NCBI GenBank assembly: GCA_945869675.1
Contig: CAMBPS010000008.1
Location: 1 to 63,754 of the forward strand
Length of the DNA stretch: 63,754 bases
Reading direction: 5' to 3'
Origin: Prosthecobacter debontii
GTDB lineage: Bacteria > Verrucomicrobiota > Verrucomicrobiia > Verrucomicrobiales > Verrucomicrobiaceae
Part shown: one piece after another, positions 4,303 to 63,754 of the stretch
Layout: each line of letters begins with the position of its first letter
Numbering within the stretch: the stretch's first letter is position 1
Translations under genes and position numbers: made by a program
The notes under the pieces: generated by a model
Database searches by the model: none
Told to the model about the DNA's origin: nothing
Seen by the model: only the letters and a program-made list of their open reading frames with translations

Positions 4303-4376
4303 TGGTTACCTCGCAAGGACTCGAACCTTGAACGAGAGAATCAAAATCTCCTGTGTTACCATTACACCACGAGGTA
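4303..4376 (-). tRNA. tRNA-Gln (anticodon TTG)
   Basis: On the minus strand a full cloverleaf can be folded: acceptor TACCTCG pairing with CGAGGTA, D stem GTGT/ACAC, anticodon stem GGAGA/TCTCT around loop TTTTGAT, a 4-base variable loop, and T arm CAAGG-TTCGAGT-CCTTG. Loop positions 34-36 read TTG, decoding CAA glutamine codons. Discriminator A and an encoded CCA (4303-4305) are present. It lies about 50 bases upstream of hisA on the same strand. Confidence 0.95.
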
Positions 4377-49881: not shown

Positions 49882-54848
<4,967 letters not shown>

Positions 54849-54864
<16 letters not shown>

Positions 54865-55400
54865 GCGACGTGGAATATATCATGATCGGCCCCTTGGTCC
54901 AACTGTTCCTCATGGGTAATGGTAACTTGGACCTTAAACATTTCCCCAAGCCCCTCCAGCAGTCCAACCACGAAGGCCGAAAGTCCGCGGCGATGGCTGC
55001 GGTAGTGCAGTCGCAGTTCATTTGGTCCCATATCGGAACACTCAAACGTTGGCGGCTGCAGCGCTGGAAACATCATCACGACTCTCGTGTGAAAGTTTGG
55101 CAGGTTATTCAGGAATTCCCCGAGTGTCCGTCCGCCGTATTTCATCAGATGACCATAGTTGTTGAGTGCTGTGTCGAGCACCCACCAGCGGCCGAATTGT
55201 ATGAGAATCTCACCCGCTGGCTGATTGAGCACCTCAGACGCGGCGCCTACCAGTTTGTAAGTCATCTCATCCGGGTAAGCCTCATTGGAGATGAAAATTT
55301 CATCCTCGACACCTGCCTTTAATTTTACCTGCTGCCACGTCTCCTCCCCATGCGTCGCCACAATGAGATCCATAATTGCGCTGTTGACCATTCCGTACAT
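54849..55400 (-). CDS. H-NOX heme-based NO sensor
   Basis: From the ATG at 55400 (start MYGMVNSAIMDLIV, the canonical H-NOX start) the protein has 183 residues, the normal domain length. The proximal heme ligand is His104 (NLPNFHTRV) and the propionate-binding YxSxR motif is Y133-S135-R137 (HYRSHRRGL). Aligned without gaps to guanylate cyclase beta (YYSEREGLQDIV), the distal position that is Tyr140 in O2-binding H-NOX is non-polar (Phe143), so an NO-selective heme is predicted. An extension to 55472 has no H-NOX counterpart. The stop overlaps the kinase start, implying co-translation of sensor and kinase. Confidence 0.95.
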
Positions 55401-55437
55401 AATTAAATAGGGGGTTGTTGTTAAAAAAAGTAAGAGA

Positions 55438-55447
55438 GGGTTAACCC
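55438..55447. promoter_or_regulatory. GGGTTAACCC palindrome in the H-NOX/DUF3050 divergent promoter
   Basis: A perfect 10-base palindrome 38 bases upstream of the H-NOX ATG and about 95 bases before the DUF3050 start, placed to act on both divergent genes. It is identical to the middle site at 48604-48613. Confidence 0.65.
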
Positions 55448-55541
55448 AACTTAAAACTCGGCTCCTTGTCAAGAGACCTCTTTCTTTGAGGTAGGGTGCT
55501 CAGGAGAATCTTGGCCATCTCAAATGGATTTTAAAACGTAG

Positions 55542-56366
55542 ATGGCTTGGATGTTAGAATTATTGAGTAACGTATTAAAAACAACGAAGGTAAGTGATTT
55601 TCAAAAAAGCTTGTCCGCGGCCATTGCTGACGATCGCCGGGCGCTGCTCGAACATCGGCTGTATGGTCAGCTGCGAACGTTGGAGAACCTGAATGCTTTC
55701 ATGGAGCAGCATGTGTTTGCGGTTTGGGATTTCATGTCTCTGCTCAAGGCGCTGCAGATGCATCTCACTTGTGTTAGCCTGCCATGGCGGCCAGTTGGGA
55801 ATGCCCAAGTCCGTCGGCTGGTCAATGAGATCGTGCTTGCTGAAGAGAGTGATGCATTGCCCACGGGAGCTGCTGCGAGTCATTTCGAACTTTATTTGCA
55901 TGCCATGCAGGAGACAGGTGCCAAAACTGACCCAATCAAGCAGTTCATTCAGTCGCTGGAATCTGGGAAGACTGTAGCGGAGGCGCTCGAACAAGGCAGG
56001 GTATCGGCTACCGTGGCGGTGTTTATTCGACAAACTTTTGAGCTCATTGAGCGGGGGCGTCCGCATGAAATTGCCGCATCATTCACCTATGGGCGCGAGG
56101 ATTTGATTCCAGACATGTTCACCCAGCTCGTGCAAGGGCTGGAGCGGCAATTCCCGGACAAGGTGGCCACCCTGCGTTACTACTTGGACCGCCACATTGC
56201 CTTGGACGGCGACGAGCACGGGGAAATGGGCCGTCAGATGGTGGCACTGCTGTGTGATGGGGACGCCCGCCGAGAGCAGGAGGCCACGCAGGCGGCGTTA
56301 GATGCGCTGCGATCCCGCATCAGGCTCTGGGACGGCATTGCGCAGGCCATGGAACTGCCGGCCTAG
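55542..56366 (+). CDS. DUF3050 protein (heme-oxygenase-like fold)
   Basis: A 274-residue helical protein recognised as DUF3050 by FMEQHVFAVWDFMSLLKALQ near residue 53, NEIVLAEESD near 95, SHFELYLHAM near 113 and YYLDRHIALDGDEHGEMG near 213. The fold is of the heme-oxygenase type, which includes diiron oxygenases and oxidases. Repeated acidic and His residues on successive helices (E55, H57, E96, H114, H219, D224, H226) make a metal site plausible, but I cannot align them to a proven member here. It is divergent from H-NOX with a shared promoter, and convergent (four-base overlap) with the HExxH gene. The reaction is unknown. Confidence 0.85.
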   Translation: MAWMLELLSNVLKTTKVSDFQKSLSAAIADDRRALLEHRLYGQLRTLENLNAFMEQHVFAVWDFMSLLKALQMHLTCVSLPWRPVGNAQVRRLVNEIVLAEESDALPTGAAASHFELYLHAMQETGAKTDPIKQFIQSLESGKTVAEALEQGRVSATVAVFIRQTFELIERGRPHEIAASFTYGREDLIPDMFTQLVQGLERQFPDKVATLRYYLDRHIALDGDEHGEMGRQMVALLCDGDARREQEATQAALDALRSRIRLWDGIAQAMELPA

Positions 56367-57397
56367 TCGCCCGCCTGAGACATTAAAGAATCAAGCAGCT
56401 TTTGACCGCCGTTGGTGGGTTTCATAAACTCTTTCAAGACCGCTAGGCCAGCTGCATACTGAGTCTTAAACTCCTGCAAAGCCTCGCCAAGATGGAGCTC
56501 AGGAAATTGAACATGCAGACGCTCATGCACCCGCTTGTTGCGGGACAGCACAAAGGTGGCGTGAAGCACCTGAAACATGGGCCGCGGATCGGGCCGGATG
56601 GGCGAGCGATTGATTTCATTCGGGTTCTTCAACAGGGGGTCAAAAGCCATCATGGCGTTCAGATGCAAATGTGAGCACTCATGCACCAGATGCTCCAGGA
56701 ACCAGGCCAGGGCTTTTTCGTGACCAGGAGCATTTAACCAGATGGCTCCAAAGGCTTTGGGGGTGCTCAGTCCTTCAATGCCGCGTCCATTAAACAGCTT
56801 GACCATGCCGACATGGGTTTGGATTTCGCTGTGCATGTCTGGATCCACTTGTTGAATGAGATCCAGCGCCTGCTTCAAAGCGGCCCGATAAGGGCTTAAA
56901 TCCTCTTCCAGCAGCGGAAACACCTCCAAGCCGGCGACACCCGCCACCTGAGTGCCTCTGATTTCTCGAAGCAACGGCCCCTCCCAGTCCTGCGTCGCCA
57001 CAGATTCCAAAAGACACTCGTCAAGATACCACTGTTCTGGCTTATCACTGATCCATGCCTGCAGGGAGTCATAGGCGCCATAACCGTCCTCATTCGACAT
57101 GGCATCCATCAGCGCCGCAAGGCGGGCAACCATCCGCGGTGACAGTCTGCGGTGAAGATCCAGTTGATCCACACGCTTCAAGATTCCGTCAATGCTTTGA
57201 TTCATCCCCTCTGCGGCAGCCTCGAGCGCCATTTTCGACTGCTTTTGCCAGAATTGCCTCCAGGTCTTGGCCAGGGCAGCGGCGGTTTGGGCTGAAGGTT
57301 CACAGGTAAACCAGTGATCAACCTTTTCTGAGGCAGATAAGGGCTGACCCGATGAGGCAATCATCGGAACGGAGGAGTAATTTGAAACCATGCTCAT
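56363..57397 (-). CDS. HExxH-motif putative peptide-modification protein
   Basis: A 344-residue protein. The HExxH motif is H239-E240-C241-S242-H243 (LVHECSHLHLNA), followed by the FDPLL element, then SPIRPDPRP (265-273) and His279 in VLHATFVLS. This order, HExxH then R-x-D-P-R-P then H, is the pattern of the family named in databases as HEXXH motif-containing putative peptide modification protein (often beside radical SAM enzymes in RiPP clusters). The N-terminal 230 residues are helical and not recognised. No radical SAM gene lies in the window. The motif and family resemblance are seen; a peptide substrate is inference. Confidence 0.75.
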   Translation of the reverse strand: MSMVSNYSSVPMIASSGQPLSASEKVDHWFTCEPSAQTAAALAKTWRQFWQKQSKMALEAAAEGMNQSIDGILKRVDQLDLHRRLSPRMVARLAALMDAMSNEDGYGAYDSLQAWISDKPEQWYLDECLLESVATQDWEGPLLREIRGTQVAGVAGLEVFPLLEEDLSPYRAALKQALDLIQQVDPDMHSEIQTHVGMVKLFNGRGIEGLSTPKAFGAIWLNAPGHEKALAWFLEHLVHECSHLHLNAMMAFDPLLKNPNEINRSPIRPDPRPMFQVLHATFVLSRNKRVHERLHVQFPELHLGEALQEFKTQYAAGLAVLKEFMKPTNGGQKLLDSLMSQAGD

Positions 57398-57850: not shown

Positions 57851-58534
57851 TCAGACGAGTCTTTTCGGAGCTGGGCTACTTTCGATGACGTAAAGCCCCA
57901 CAGCAGCCTCTCGTGTTTTAACGTGCAGCTTCTGATAGATTTTTTTCAAATGGGCACGCACGGTTTCGTAGCTCAGCCCGAGGTCATTTGCGATATCTTT
58001 GGGAGACTGCCCTGTTGCCAAGTTTTGCAGGATTCCCATTTCCCGCTCGGTTAAGACATTCAGACTTGGCTTTTTAGCCTCAACGACAGAGACTTGGCGA
58101 AACTCATCCACCAAAAAGCGTGCTACGAGCGGACTAAGAACAGCGCCATCCTTGGCGGCTGTGCGGATGCCGTCCAGCAGTTCTTCCGGAGTCGTGTCTT
58201 TGACCAAGTAACCTGACGCCCCTTGACGCAAGCATTGGAACACATCCTGAGGATTACACGAGGCGGTGAGAACAACGCAGGTGAGATTGGGTCTATCCCG
58301 CTTGATTCGGAAGATCAATGATCCGCCATCTTCCTCGGGCAGATCAAGATCGATAAGCAGGAGATCTGCGTAGACATCCCTGCCATCCTTCCAAAATTCC
58401 TCCGCACTTCCCCAATGCCCTATAAATTCTAGCTCCTCTTGACGATTGATCATCTCAACGAGGAGCATGCGCGTGATTCGGTCATCTTCGACAATACCGA
58501 TTTTGACTTTTTTGGGGGACTGCGCGGTGCTCAT
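57851..58534 (-). CDS. NarL/FixJ-type response regulator 2
   Basis: A 227-residue paralog of the regulator at 49191. The receiver has acidic pocket EDD (16-18), phospho-Asp62 in LLIDLDLP and Lys near 112 (VKDTT). The LuxR-type HTH contains LNVLTEREMGILQNLA and LGLSYETVRAHLKKIYQKLHVKTREAA. The recognition helices of the two paralogs are almost the same (LS[HY]ETVR[VA]H[ML]KKIYQKL), so they may bind related sites. It lies between the HExxH gene and the double-CxxC gene on the same strand. Confidence 0.93.
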   Translation of the reverse strand: MSTAQSPKKVKIGIVEDDRITRMLLVEMINRQEELEFIGHWGSAEEFWKDGRDVYADLLLIDLDLPEEDGGSLIFRIKRDRPNLTCVVLTASCNPQDVFQCLRQGASGYLVKDTTPEELLDGIRTAAKDGAVLSPLVARFLVDEFRQVSVVEAKKPSLNVLTEREMGILQNLATGQSPKDIANDLGLSYETVRAHLKKIYQKLHVKTREAAVGLYVIESSPAPKRLV

Positions 58535-58604: not shown

Positions 58605-59459
58605 TCAACCCTCAACTTTGTGATTACCGCAGCATTCATGGCATAATGTGTGGGTGTAATTGACATGGCCTAAGCGACTGATGTAACTGTCCCAGCGAAC
58701 CCAGTTCCCGGCCTCGGTTCTCAGATGTTCGCAAATGGCACAGACGTCGATACAACCACCATGGTCGGGTGAATTAAACAGGGAATGTTGGTCTGCGGAC
58801 AAATGAGGCGTCCCATTTTTGGCTGCGGTGCATTCGGTATAGTGAAGGCCCGCACAAGCGTTGCAGATGGTATGGCTCAGCCTTGCACCGCTCTGGCGCA
58901 TCAAAAACTCGTCCCAGCGCAGCCATTGATCGGTGGCGTATTGCAGGTTTTCACAAATCAAACAGGTCTTCAGTCCTGATTGTTCAGCAAACCTTGTAAA
59001 ATAGGCAGACTGTTTTTGATAATAGTCCAGGGCCACAGCAATGTCATTGAGGATGTCTTGCAGCAAACTCACTGCATGGTGACTCATTTGCCGCGTCGCC
59101 GGAAGAAGGACGATCAGGCGAGCATGGGTGCAGATCCCTTTCTTTGATTGATGGATCAGCGTGCCTACCGAGAGACAAAGAACGGGACTCATCCCGATGA
59201 TTTTGACGTTGCAGGCGGTCTTCCCCGGCAAAAAGGGTTCATTTTTAAACTCATCAACGATCCTCACTGCCAGTGCTTTGGCGATGCGGTGGCAGCCTTT
59301 GAACTGAGGGTTACCTCCATTCACCTGCGTCATGAAAACAGCCCCATAAGCCTCAGTCACTTCACAACTCTTGCGCAGCAGGAACTGAAGGCTCCATGGA
59401 GAGCTTTGCAGCGCCTCCACAGGCTCGTTCTTTGATGGCAGTTTAAGTGTCGTTGGCAT
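58605..59459 (-). CDS. Protein with GAF-like N-terminus and two C-x2-C/W/H-x2-C modules
   Basis: A 284-residue protein. Residues about 15-150 look like a divergent GAF domain (FLLRKSCEVTEAYGAVFM, then ILNDIAVALDYY). Two copies of a small Cys/His module follow: C166-C169-W179-H196-C199-C202 and C240-C243-W253-H270-C273-C276, with identical spacing. The module resembles the short C-terminal extension of many PAS/GAF sensor proteins (C-x2-C ... W ... Y[IL] ... SHxxCxxC) and likely binds Zn or another metal. No enzymatic domain is present. It lies on the same strand as response regulator 2, so a partner role in the same signalling path is likely. Confidence 0.7.
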   Translation of the reverse strand: MPTTLKLPSKNEPVEALQSSPWSLQFLLRKSCEVTEAYGAVFMTQVNGGNPQFKGCHRIAKALAVRIVDEFKNEPFLPGKTACNVKIIGMSPVLCLSVGTLIHQSKKGICTHARLIVLLPATRQMSHHAVSLLQDILNDIAVALDYYQKQSAYFTRFAEQSGLKTCLICENLQYATDQWLRWDEFLMRQSGARLSHTICNACAGLHYTECTAAKNGTPHLSADQHSLFNSPDHGGCIDVCAICEHLRTEAGNWVRWDSYISRLGHVNYTHTLCHECCGNHKVEG

Positions 59460-59688: not shown

Positions 59689-60393
59689 TTAATTGCCCTT
59701 TCTCGGAAACATTCGGTGAAGGTGCTCATGCCGTTCTCGCAGCCTCATCAGCACTTGGGCTTTGGATTGAGTTGCCTGATTGGCGGTGTCCGCTTCTAAG
59801 GCGCCTGTGTCAGAGGTAGGCTGCCCTGGTTTGGCAAGACTACTTTCAAAAGTGTTACTTGCGCTCAGGATCACGCCGGAACGCAGGTTGGCTGCACGAG
59901 AGTCAACCGTGGTCGGGGCCTGCACTCCTCCGGCAGCTTGTTGGGATAACTGTTGAATCGGTGTCTCCGGTGGCGGTTCTACCGAATCCGTTTGTTGGTT
60001 GATCCAGGCCTGCTGCCCGTTGAGGTCGACGAGCACGCGAGCCTCGAGAAGACTATCCGCGTTTTCAACTTCGACGAACTGCATCACTCCAGCCTCAGCC
60101 GGCTCGTCTTGCTGCAAGATGAAGGTCTGGTCTGTATCGGTGCGGTAAATGTAAACAGAAAGCCGGCCGTCCAATTCAGACCATCCTGCGAGTTGTAAAT
60201 TAGCCGCCCAGTCCGCGTTCTCAACGACTGTGACCTCAGATTTGGTCTCATGAGTGGTGAACATCGAGCGCTCCCACAGGGGTTGATACTCATTGAGGGG
60301 TTTGAATGAGACGGGAGACTTCTCGGGCTCTTGGGCAGGCAATAAGCCAGCCGTGAGAGCAATCAGCAGAGGAATGGAAAATCGGGAGATCAT
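59689..60393 (-). CDS. Exported protein of unknown function
   Basis: From the ATG at 60393 (start MISRFSIPLLIALTAGLLPAQ, a clear signal peptide) the protein has 234 residues; upstream residues are non-coding in character. The mature part contains LNEYQPLWERSMFTTHE, two beta-rich segments (LQLAGWSELDGRLSVYIY and LLEARVLVDLNGQQAW), then a Gln/Thr/Ser-rich tail ending in a basic helix (LRERHEHLHRMF). The Y-x-P-L-W/F element before short beta repeats is vaguely reminiscent of GspC-like periplasmic domains, but this is weak. Last gene of the exported-protein run. Confidence 0.65.
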   Translation of the reverse strand: MISRFSIPLLIALTAGLLPAQEPEKSPVSFKPLNEYQPLWERSMFTTHETKSEVTVVENADWAANLQLAGWSELDGRLSVYIYRTDTDQTFILQQDEPAEAGVMQFVEVENADSLLEARVLVDLNGQQAWINQQTDSVEPPPETPIQQLSQQAAGGVQAPTTVDSRAANLRSGVILSASNTFESSLAKPGQPTSDTGALEADTANQATQSKAQVLMRLRERHEHLHRMFPRKGN

Positions 60394-60458
60394 GCAGAGT
60401 GCAAATGGAATAGTTTCAGGCAGACGGGCAAGCACGGAGCCACGACCGCATCTTGGGG

Positions 60459-61418
60459 TTAGGGGATCTGATCGGGATCGGCAGATGCAATCGCGCTTTC
60501 GATTTCGCTGGTGCCATTGAAGGTGACCATGACCGCCTGAAGATGGACGGGTAGCGTGCCGAGCACCTGATCGGTCGTTGGTGCCGTGGTGGCTTTGTAA
60601 GTCCACACGCCGAATTGGGGCTCAACGCCATCTGGAATGGCGATGGCATTGCCAAGCAGTGTGCGGACAGCGCCATCCACGCGGTAGATGCGAATGGTCG
60701 GCAACACACCGCCAAGGGAATGGTAGAAGCCACGCATGTCCACATCGTCTCCACGGGTCGCATTCGGCCCACGCTCGCGGGTCTGGGCACGCATGATGTT
60801 GATCTGGGAATTGGGGTTGACAAGGGGGAAGTTCCCGGCCAGCTCCAGCGCGAAGGCATTGAAAACGCCGCCGGCATAATAGCCAGCCGCTGCTGCGGCT
60901 GTTCCCACGGGAATTGCCGGAGTTTTGATTTCAAAGCTGAATTGGTTCACCGCGCTGTAGGGAATGCGAGCATCACTGATGGGGACGACCTCGCTGTTCA
61001 GGATCCGCAAGGGCGAAGACTGAGTGACGACGCCGATGAGCACATTCTCCGCTGGCTCCACATCCATGCTAGTAGCGGTGAAGCTACCTGTGGCTACATC
61101 CACCACGCCATTGATCAGGGCGGTGCCGCCCAAGAATCCTGGCTCAGTCCGCCCTGCCAGCCTTGTGCGCAGGCAGAGCTGACGCACAGTCAAGGCGCGG
61201 GTGGGCGAGTGCACGGGGGTTCCCACAGGAACTTTGACCGTCACTCCAATGACCGTCATGATGGCACTGCCATCCGGCTGCAGGACGATGTTGTTGATGG
61301 GGCCTTCGGTGTAACCGGGAATCGTTGTAGGTGTAGGCGCTGGAGGCACCTGGCCAAGAGAAGATTGGGTGGTCAGTGAGAGTGCCAGAAGGCTGATTAA
61401 TAAGCAGAGGGTTTTCAT
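60459..61418 (-). CDS. Exported beta-rich protein of unknown function
   Basis: From the ATG at 61418 (start MKTLCLLISLLALSL, signal peptide ending near SSLGQ) the protein has 319 residues. The mature part is rich in short beta strands (NNIVLQPDGSAIMTVIGVTVKVPVG, FSFEIKTPAIPVG) and ends acidic (ASADPDQIP). An RGDDVD element is near residue 235. No family was recognised. It lies about 40 bases after the repeat-protein gene and about 65 before the gene at 59689, consistent with one operon. Confidence 0.65.
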   Translation of the reverse strand: MKTLCLLISLLALSLTTQSSLGQVPPAPTPTTIPGYTEGPINNIVLQPDGSAIMTVIGVTVKVPVGTPVHSPTRALTVRQLCLRTRLAGRTEPGFLGGTALINGVVDVATGSFTATSMDVEPAENVLIGVVTQSSPLRILNSEVVPISDARIPYSAVNQFSFEIKTPAIPVGTAAAAAGYYAGGVFNAFALELAGNFPLVNPNSQINIMRAQTRERGPNATRGDDVDMRGFYHSLGGVLPTIRIYRVDGAVRTLLGNAIAIPDGVEPQFGVWTYKATTAPTTDQVLGTLPVHLQAVMVTFNGTSEIESAIASADPDQIP

Positions 61419-61459: not shown

Positions 61460-63031
61460 TTAGCGGAGAGCGGAGCTGGTCCAATAAACCTGACGGGTGC
61501 TTGAAACCGCTGTGCCGGAATCATCCAAGGTTGTGACTTGCGGTCCGTAGATCTGAATGACCTTGCCACGCAGGAATTTGTCATTGAGCTCAGGCATGCG
61601 ATCGCTGTTGAGGAAGAGGCCGTGAATGCAGCCCTGGGCGTCTTTGCCGGATTGGTCGTCCCAAGTGATGATGCCTGTCTCAGAGGTGGTTACGGCCTGA
61701 TCTTCGCGCGTATCCTGAGCAGAAGCTTGGGCCCAAAGAGCGGCTGCAGCCTGTGCCTGCTGGGTGTTCGCATAGAGGGAGAAACGCAGGCGCTCTTTGT
61801 TGGGCAGATTGCCGATGGTTTCGCCGTTTTCGAGATCAGCTGTGCTTGTGCTAGGGGCCTTGCTAAAGCCTTTGACCGCTACGTTCAGAACGTGGTTCTT
61901 GCCTTGGCTGCTTTGGATGGCCATGGGGCTGAGTCCTGCCGTCTGTGCCTGCTGGGAGGCGCGGAAAATCACCTTCTTCTGTCGGCCACTGGTGGTCGAT
62001 GCAGCCTGTGCTTTGGCCACTTCGGTCGTGATTTGACCTCTGAACTGCGTTCCAGTCGCTGCAGGTGCAGTTATGGCCGCCAGGGTTGGAACCAGAGCAC
62101 CGGTAGATGCGACGATGTCATCCGCACCGCGGCCTTGGCGGATGTCAGGGGTTGCTGTAGCCGTAACGATGTCGTCAGCACCGCGACCTTGGCGGACGTC
62201 AGGGGTTGCTGTAGCCGTAACGATGTCATCAGCGCCGCGACCTTGGCGGACATCCGGCGTTGCGGTTGTTACCACGTCATCAGCACCGCGACCTTGGCGG
62301 ACGTCAGGGGTTGCTGTAGCCGTAACGATGTCATCAGCGCCGCGTCCTTGGCGGACGTCTGGGGTTGCTGTAGCTGTGACGATGTCGTCAGCGCCGCGAC
62401 CTTGGCGGAGGTCAGGGGTTGCCGCGGCAGTGTTGGTTCCAAAACCGAGGGTTGTGGTAACAAAATTGATCAGCGTGGCAACAATGCCGCGATCTTCGGT
62501 CGCCACAGCAGCCACGTCATCAGCGCCACGTCCTTGGCGGACGTCTGGGGTTGCTGTAGCTGTAACGATGTCATCAGCACCACGTCCTTGGCGGACGTCT
62601 GGGGTTGTTGTAGCTGTGACGATGTCATCAGCGCCACGTCCTTGGCGCACGTCTGGGGTTGTTGTAGCTGTAACGAGGTCATCAGCGCCGCGTCCTTGGC
62701 GGACGTCTGGGGTTGTTGTAGCTGTGACGAGGTCATCAGCGCCACGACCTTGGCGAACGTCGGGGGTTGCTGTAGCTGTGGCGAGGTCATCAGCACCGCG
62801 GCCTTGGCGAACGTCTGGGGTTGTTGTAGCTGTGGCGAGGTCATCAGCACCGCGTCCTTGGCGAACGTCTGAGGTTGTTGTGACTGCGTCATTAGCACCG
62901 CGTGCCTGGCGCTCATTTTTGACGGAAAGAGGACGGCGAATTTCGACTTCGGCTTCTTTGGCAGCGAGTGTTAAAGCTTGGCTGCTGAGCAACGCAGCGG
63001 CAGTGAGAATGGCAGAAGATTTAGGTGCCAT
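61460..63031 (-). CDS. Exported protein with thirteen RQGRGADD repeats
   Basis: From the ATG at 63031 the protein has 523 residues (earlier in-frame codons to 63127 are unlikely). A signal peptide (about 1-24, ending LTLAA) is followed by one degenerate (RQARGAND) and thirteen exact RQGRGADD octapeptides. The period is 18 residues, TPDVRQGRGADD plus a hydrophobic/Thr linker of the type (L/I/V)(V/A)TAT(T/A). A hydrophobic insertion (about 176-205, with LINFVTTTLGFG) interrupts the array after seven copies. The C-terminal about 215 residues form a separate beta-rich domain with a WDDQSGKDAQG segment. Function is unknown. The invariant octapeptide amid variable linkers suggests a binding or processing unit. 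Confidence 0.8.
   Translation of the reverse strand: MAPKSSAILTAAALLSSQALTLAAKEAEVEIRRPLSVKNERQARGANDAVTTTSDVRQGRGADDLATATTTPDVRQGRGADDLATATATPDVRQGRGADDLVTATTTPDVRQGRGADDLVTATTTPDVRQGRGADDIVTATTTPDVRQGRGADDIVTATATPDVRQGRGADDVAAVATEDRGIVATLINFVTTTLGFGTNTAAATPDLRQGRGADDIVTATATPDVRQGRGADDIVTATATPDVRQGRGADDVVTTATPDVRQGRGADDIVTATATPDVRQGRGADDIVTATATPDIRQGRGADDIVASTGALVPTLAAITAPAATGTQFRGQITTEVAKAQAASTTSGRQKKVIFRASQQAQTAGLSPMAIQSSQGKNHVLNVAVKGFSKAPSTSTADLENGETIGNLPNKERLRFSLYANTQQAQAAAALWAQASAQDTREDQAVTTSETGIITWDDQSGKDAQGCIHGLFLNSDRMPELNDKFLRGKVIQIYGPQVTTLDDSGTAVSSTRQVYWTSSALR
62111..62914 (-). repeat. 54-bp tandem repeat array inside the RQGRGADD gene
   Basis: Fourteen units of about 54 bases (18 codons) encode the RQGRGADD octapeptide plus linker, with an interruption near 62415-62505. 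Most sequence changes are in the linker (L/I/V then A/V) and at third positions; one unit is three bases shorter. The array is protein-coding, not CRISPR: there is no unique spacer between units. Confidence 0.92.
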
Positions 63032-63289
63032 TTTTTTATTGGTTTTAATGAATCTAGTATTTATAAATCGAGGGCTGAGGACTCCCCAAAATTCGGGGTA
63101 GGGTGTGCTAGCGGCTTCGGAGCCCAAGCACGATCAGGTCAGAACCAGACTCAGGCACCGCGACGACCATCCTCTTGAAGTCGTCGAAATAGCGGGCTGA
63201 GTTCATGCTGGTGCTGGCGAGATCGTAGCCTTTGATTCAGGACGTTGTGCAAACGATTACGGAAGGCAGATCGGAAAAGAGGAGGAAAT

Positions 63290-63336: not shown

Positions 63337-63754
63337 TCACCCAACAGCCAGTGGAGATGAAAGGGTTTGAGGACGGCGGCGGCGCAGCATCAAGAGAGCA
63401 CTACTTAACATGAGCAGGGCGGATCCTGGCTCTGGAACTGGCGCGGTGGTAAAGTCTCCGACGTAAATGTCTTTCACCCAGATGTTTCCGTTGGTCTCAC
63501 GCAGAGCAAAGCTGGAGACGTTGGTGTCAAAGCCCATTTTTGAATTGAAGTAGGCAAAGTCCACGTAGCCGTTTTCTGCTCCTGCGATGGAGCCGTCCAC
63601 AAAGAAGCTGGTAGCTATTTCCATTTCCTGCTCGGTGATGCTGAAAATGCCGTTACTGGTGTTGAACCAGAGCATGGGATCGTCACCGCTGAGATTGAAG
63701 CCTTGGCCGTAAGCAGAGGTGCCATAGTTGAGTCCGCTAATGGTCAGTGCCAGA
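63337..63754 (-). CDS. PEP-CTERM exported protein (3' part, cut by window edge)
   Basis: The frame is open to the window end; about 138 C-terminal residues are visible. The end has the PEP-CTERM sorting signal: VPEPGSALL, a hydrophobic helix of about 12 residues, and RRRR. The body is beta-rich and ends with a WVKDIYVGDF segment. PEP-CTERM proteins are processed by an exosortase and placed at the cell surface or in exopolysaccharide. No exosortase gene is in the window. Confidence 0.88.
   Translation of the reverse strand, partial: LALTISGLNYGTSAYGQGFNLSGDDPMLWFNTSNGIFSITEQEMEIATSFFVDGSIAGAENGYVDFAYFNSKMGFDTNVSSFALRETNGNIWVKDIYVGDFTTAPVPEPGSALLMLSSALLMLRRRRPQTLSSPLAVG

Follow-up and report, generated by a model that had tools for sequence, protein, structure and literature searches.

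A secreted tandem-repeat protein as a candidate substrate of an aKG-HExxH peptide hydroxylase on a copper-redox island

Oxygenases of the aKG-HExxH type have been recognised as a family only recently. The residues hydroxylated by published members are His, Asp, Phe, Gln and Pro (PMC13060819); two of these enzymes act in this way on runs of Gln and also break the backbone ahead of a motif that contains Ala (PMC12636437). In the RiPP systems described with such an enzyme (ChlH; PflC/PosC; BpmH/BipH; PesO) the precursors are short peptides with a leader and a core, none of them a secreted protein above 400 aa, and the accompanying genes encode radical SAM, MNIO or similar RiPP enzymes. The locus considered here lies in a window of 63,754 nucleotides, the whole stretch of DNA that was analysed. 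It resembles those systems in having a TIGR04267 enzyme encoded close to a ribosomal product in which Gln and Asp recur, but the candidate substrate is a secreted repeat protein of 522 amino acids on a copper-oxidase island. While the enzyme family, and the general kind of pairing of a peptide-modifying enzyme with a repeated ribosomal substrate, are already known, it would be new for the candidate substrate to be a large secreted repeat protein on such an island.

Sec-exported modified precursors, and repeats of about 17 residues, exist in the bufferin/oxazolin group (PMC12452194). The present protein is like bufferins and Buf_EGKCG/oxazolins, which are MNIO-modified and copper-binding, in having a Sec signal and not a classical leader, in the variable number of its repeats, which are about 17 residues long and share a short conserved motif, and in its copper setting (PMC12452194). 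Those groups, however, depend on Cys and on an MNIO, whereas here the enzyme is of the aKG-HExxH type, the repeats are without Cys (zero to one per whole protein) and no MNIO is present among the scanned neighbour genes of the island; the shared Sec signal and variable repeat number notwithstanding, membership by Cys motifs and MNIO was rejected.

Thiovarsolin-type precursors have YcaO/TfuA partner enzymes. Tandem short cores are a likeness to these multi-core precursors (NF033878), and two relatives of the present protein have whole-protein scores of 46.7 and 38.8 against that model (curated cut-off 35). The single-domain score is only 24, below the cut-off, the window's own protein gives no match, there is no APR core and none of the 7 carrier genomes has a YcaO, and this assignment too was rejected. 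RTX repeat proteins have tandem GGxGxDxUx nonapeptides and leave the cell by type I secretion without an N-terminal signal peptide. The GxGxD motif and, in this genome, the 18-residue period are shared with them; unlike them the present protein has variable spacing, one motif per rung (one per 12-19 residues), an N-terminal signal peptide and no Pfam match, so that RTX family membership was set aside and the likeness is kept as a functional rival.

The repeat protein and its unit

The features needed for what follows are these.

56363..57397, (-), aKG-HExxH-type peptide beta-hydroxylase (TIGR04267, by profile match), the proposed modifying enzyme and end gene of the island
57851..58534, (-), NarL-type response regulator, which most carriers have inside the island
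58605..59459, (-), conserved protein, no family match, in which two C..C motifs read as zinc-finger-like
59689..60606, (-), secreted protein cl4 (SMFTTHE..), no known family, conserved operon partner
60459..61418, (-), secreted protein cl1 (EGPINNIVLQPDG..), no known family, conserved operon partner
61460..63031, (-), repeat protein gene, ATG start, 522 aa: signal peptide, 14 units and C-terminal domain
61463..62095, (-), C-terminal domain of about 210 residues, no known family
62117..62863, (-), the array: 13 perfect copies of RQGRGADD, repeating every 18 residues apart from one period of 17 and one break
62408..62515, (-), the break, an insertion of 36 residues that follows the 7th perfect copy (VAAVATEDRGIVATLINFVTTTLGFGTNTAAATPDL)
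62888..62911, (-), degenerate unit RQARGAND, ahead of the array
62933..62959, (-), conserved leader-like segment KEAEVEIRR, directly after the signal peptide
62960..63031, (-), residues 1-24, Sec signal peptide as predicted by eye from the sequence (MAPKSSAILTAAALLSSQALTLAA)
63337..63753, (-), PEP-CTERM protein with which the upstream part of the island begins, truncated where the contig stops

The first-pass annotation had described 61460-63031 as a secreted protein with thirteen identical copies of RQGRGADD, and a pattern count gives thirteen perfect copies; the signal peptide is predicted by eye. A degenerate DNA pattern for the octapeptide has exactly 13 matches genome-wide, all in the repeat gene; over the whole genome it has none on the other strand, and a reversed control pattern has none. 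Unit-to-unit spacing is 18 residues, the exceptions being one of 16, one of 17 and one of 44 (at the break), and the linkers are rich in Thr and Ala and end in TPDV. Between the 13 copies the unit varies in the third base of its codons (pS 0.35, pN 0), and for the ten 18-spaced linkers pS is 0.23 and pN 0.078. Such synonymous divergence with zero amino-acid differences, against the replacements in the linkers, means that the identity of the unit is not chance and is more than recent duplication. Constraint falls on the unit, not on the linker or the whole array, as had been proposed, and the unit is conserved in related species. Long open frames opposite the array, 61538-62872 (+) and 62073-63101 (+), are a by-product of high-GC repeats with no evidence that they are genes.

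When 68 genomes of Verrucomicrobiaceae were searched for the C-terminal domain or the repeats, relatives of the repeat protein were found in five other genomes, all of the same genus (G039, G041, G051, G056 and G059). The C-terminal domain is in none of the other 383 of the 384 sampled genomes of the class, and a weak paralogue of it is present in a downstream secreted protein of relatives. The octapeptide is invariant, as claimed, within this genome but not across its relatives, where the 97 units of six genomes follow R-Q-[GAS]-[RQ]-G-[AT]-D-[DN]. By position there are R in 97, Q in 92, G in 70 with A in 16 and S in 11, R in 69 with Q in 26, G in 96, A in 93, D in 95, and D in 86 with N in 8, so that R1, Q2, G5, A6 and D7 are nearly invariant; the form in G059 is RQARGADN.

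The relatives mostly have a spacing of 16 where this genome has 18; blocks of 19 also occur, and G059 has two of 12. Fully assembled arrays have 10-23 units. The break keeps the pattern E-[DE]-R-G-[IV]-...-F-...-L-G-[FL] in five of the six genomes, is duplicated in G056, and is modestly amphipathic (hydrophobic moment 0.30-0.39). All six N-termini have a signal peptide, judged by eye, and behind it an E-[IV]-R-R-[AP] segment.

An array of this sort could be a disordered repeat of the surface or matrix that carries no modification (a spacer, adhesin or polyampholyte), acting with PEP-CTERM proteins and oxidases and kept alike by gene conversion and mild selection, the HExxH enzyme then being a passenger or acting elsewhere. 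The low-complexity Thr/Ala linkers, the varying copy number, the homogenisation of the unit between genomes and the PEP-CTERM neighbours are all consistent with this, as is the low pLDDT throughout the AlphaFold2 model (pLDDT 40; Foldseek with that poor model gave no significant match). Homogenisation alone, though, leaves unexplained both the synonymous-only differences and the position-specific conservation over six genomes, and the confinement of the enzyme to the same islands also goes unexplained; this reading is considered rather improbable.

The other possibility for an unmodified protein is a one-sided RTX-like beta-solenoid, with a potential site for Ca2+ or another metal at each GxGxD turn, between adjacent rungs. 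QGRGADDIV fits GGxGxDxUx except for its first residue, a complete rung of a beta-roll takes up 18 residues, there are weak matches to the calcium-binding repeat models NF046115 (E 5.7e-9) and NF033943 (E 2.3e-5), and the low-confidence model puts strands on both sides of GRGAD. Searches of the repeat arrays against plasmids by tblastn gave low-complexity or RTX-type matches only, the similarity to RTX-type proteins reaching E values down to 1e-7. Yet the NCBIfam scores are far below cut-off, no Pfam RTX match appears at E up to 1 for seven sequences, and the Foldseek search, with its poor model, gave nothing significant. Spacing of 16, 19 or 12 in relatives, with the motif in only one half of each rung, fits a regular solenoid badly, as does replacement of the first Gly by Ala or Ser in some units (throughout the RQARGADN form, for instance), and an N-terminal Sec-like signal is not that of a type I secretion protein. 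A solenoid of this kind is therefore held to be unlikely.

The HExxH enzyme and its shared distribution

That the repeat protein might be the substrate of an HExxH protein encoded about 4 kb away had been put forward as speculation. The protein at 56363-57397 scores 74.8 bits against TIGR04267 (curated cut-off 40) and so belongs to the family, as does its G059 homologue at 81.1 bits (cut-off 40). Invariant in six homologues are HECSH and S-P-x-R-x-D-P-R-P-M-F-Q-V-L-H-A-T-F-V, and an HExxH plus S-P-x-R-x-D-x-R-P...LHA.FV motif is common to the enzyme and ChlH, which has been crystallised (8s5f), the aligned residues 251-301 being a weak match (E 0.76). The AlphaFold2 model has a pLDDT of 43 and, poor as it is, gave no significant Foldseek match. 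From its sequence the enzyme appears to be cytoplasmic, with no signal peptide. It was found in none of the other genomes among the 338 sampled of the phylum; plasmid homologues with 24-36% identity occur in Pantoea, Xenorhabdus and Streptomyces, with no repeat protein listed adjoining them and one of them with a YcaO. Two of the four HExxH-gene genomes that match Verrucomicrobiaceae MAG contigs carry a pond label.

Among the 68 family genomes the enzyme is in six (G000, G039, G040, G041, G056 and G059), the repeat protein in six and both in five, a co-occurrence with a hypergeometric p of 3.4e-6 if the genomes are taken as independent; in a test of independent pairs four of four point in the same direction (p 0.125). 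Both mismatches have assembly excuses. G051, with the repeat and without the enzyme, is a MAG of 78% completeness, with a contig that breaks off within the array, and in G040, with the enzyme and without the repeat, contigs end in PEP-CTERM b and cl4, the assembly gap being the exact place of the repeat gene. G053 has the core copper operon with neither gene, and so has G041 in a second copy of it. By family membership and shared distribution the pairing has gained ground since it was proposed, and the repeat protein remains a candidate substrate.

As both genes are on one mobile island, their co-occurrence may reflect linkage, and the enzyme could instead modify another island product (PEP-CTERM b, cl1, cl4 or an unannotated small peptide) with the repeat protein merely sharing the island. 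PEP-CTERM b and the second cl1 copy occur only where the repeat gene does, and the enzyme and repeat genes are not adjacent, the distance between them being 4 kb here and about 6 kb in G059. Against this, no conserved small ORF is seen by eye in the gaps flanking the HExxH gene, and PEP-CTERM b, cl1 and cl4 read like ordinary folded secreted proteins without a short repeated motif. Another product as the target has a low probability, below that given to either form of unmodified repeat protein.

A possible role as multi-site substrate

The reading tentatively preferred, though at somewhat less than even confidence, makes the repeat protein a dedicated substrate that the aKG-HExxH peptide beta-hydroxylase of the same island would modify at multiple sites and that would then be exported, in the manner of Sec-exported RiPP-like metallophores. 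That the repeat gene travels on the same patchy island as a hydroxylase that is nearly absent from the rest of the phylum suggests that the unit is what the enzyme modifies. Gln2 and Asp7 are nearly invariant in the unit, and Gln and Asp are known target types of the enzyme family. Like a RiPP precursor, the repeat protein is encoded with a peptide-modifying enzyme (same island, shared distribution) that is presumably dedicated to it.

The precursor would be made with its Sec signal and the conserved EIRRA segment, which may act as a leader. Judging from the chemistry of the family and the conservation of the unit, the cytoplasmic enzyme would then hydroxylate Gln2 and/or Asp7/Asp8 in each R-Q-x-x-G-A-D-[DN] unit, and the modified chain would be exported by Sec to act outside the inner membrane. 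There it would most plausibly be a flexible metal-binding or crosslinkable polymer, and might serve the copper-redox enzymes of the island, namely the multicopper oxidases, SCO1, the HMA protein and the di-haem peroxidases. It is from the neighbours only that a role involving copper or another metal is suggested.

More doubtful than the substrate role itself is the wider proposal of a new class, an exported poly-hydroxylated repeat protein whose 10-23 units would make a multivalent hydroxy-Asp/hydroxy-Gln polymer serving a copper-oxidase surface island. If it is right, peptide-modification chemistry would here yield a structural or metal-handling biopolymer and not a small natural product. The substrate role by itself, if borne out, would show the aKG-HExxH family acting on full-size exported proteins. 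It would also offer a ready multi-copy substrate for finding the recognition rule of the enzyme, and a function for a patchy copper-redox island of freshwater Verrucomicrobiaceae whose small secreted proteins mostly match no known family.

The copper-redox island and its surroundings

The conserved island of the carriers has a di-haem cytochrome c peroxidase/MauG-type protein, one or more multicopper oxidases, SCO1/SenC, an HMA-domain protein and PEP-CTERM proteins, together with cl1, cl4, the repeat protein, a regulator pair in most carriers and the HExxH gene at the end. It is only partly in the window because the contig ends at 63754; in relatives the upstream part has MCO, SCO1, HMA and di-haem peroxidase genes. 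At the loci L035 and L038 tandem multicopper oxidases, SCO1/SenC (two matched SCO1 stretches), HMA, MauG/MbnH-like di-haem proteins and PEP-CTERM proteins are conserved and patchy. The cl1 family ('EGPISSI..DGSLIMTVIGV'; also at L090 and L092) has no Pfam or NCBIfam match and often has two copies per island. Peculiar to the G059 island is a 490-aa secreted protein between cl1 and cl4 (L039:10583-12052), and in that island a second MauG-like gene stands immediately ahead of the HExxH gene.

The closest relative, G036 (97% MraY identity), is without the island. There an unrelated gene comes next after the histidine kinase, H-NOX and DUF3050 genes, from which it follows that the island begins at the HExxH gene. 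On the MraY tree the carriers are scattered, and supported branches force at least 5 gains or losses. The island of G059 does not have the regulators, DUF3050 and H-NOX beside it, and the HExxH gene is still its end gene.

In the window, 49882-56366 (and likewise L146) has an H-NOX beside a large PAS/GAF-type hybrid histidine kinase, with a NarL-type regulator and DUF3050, which is haem-oxygenase-like. The H-NOX, histidine kinase and DUF3050 were considered as partners and rejected, since DUF3050 is in 12 genomes including non-carriers, is elsewhere in G059, and in G036 the trio is present without the island. With the NarL-type regulator they are likely to be a nitric-oxide sensing module independent of the repeat island, and in G036 this module stands alone, marking the empty island site. 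The sole Rfam match in the window is a tRNA gene at 4306-4376 (-).
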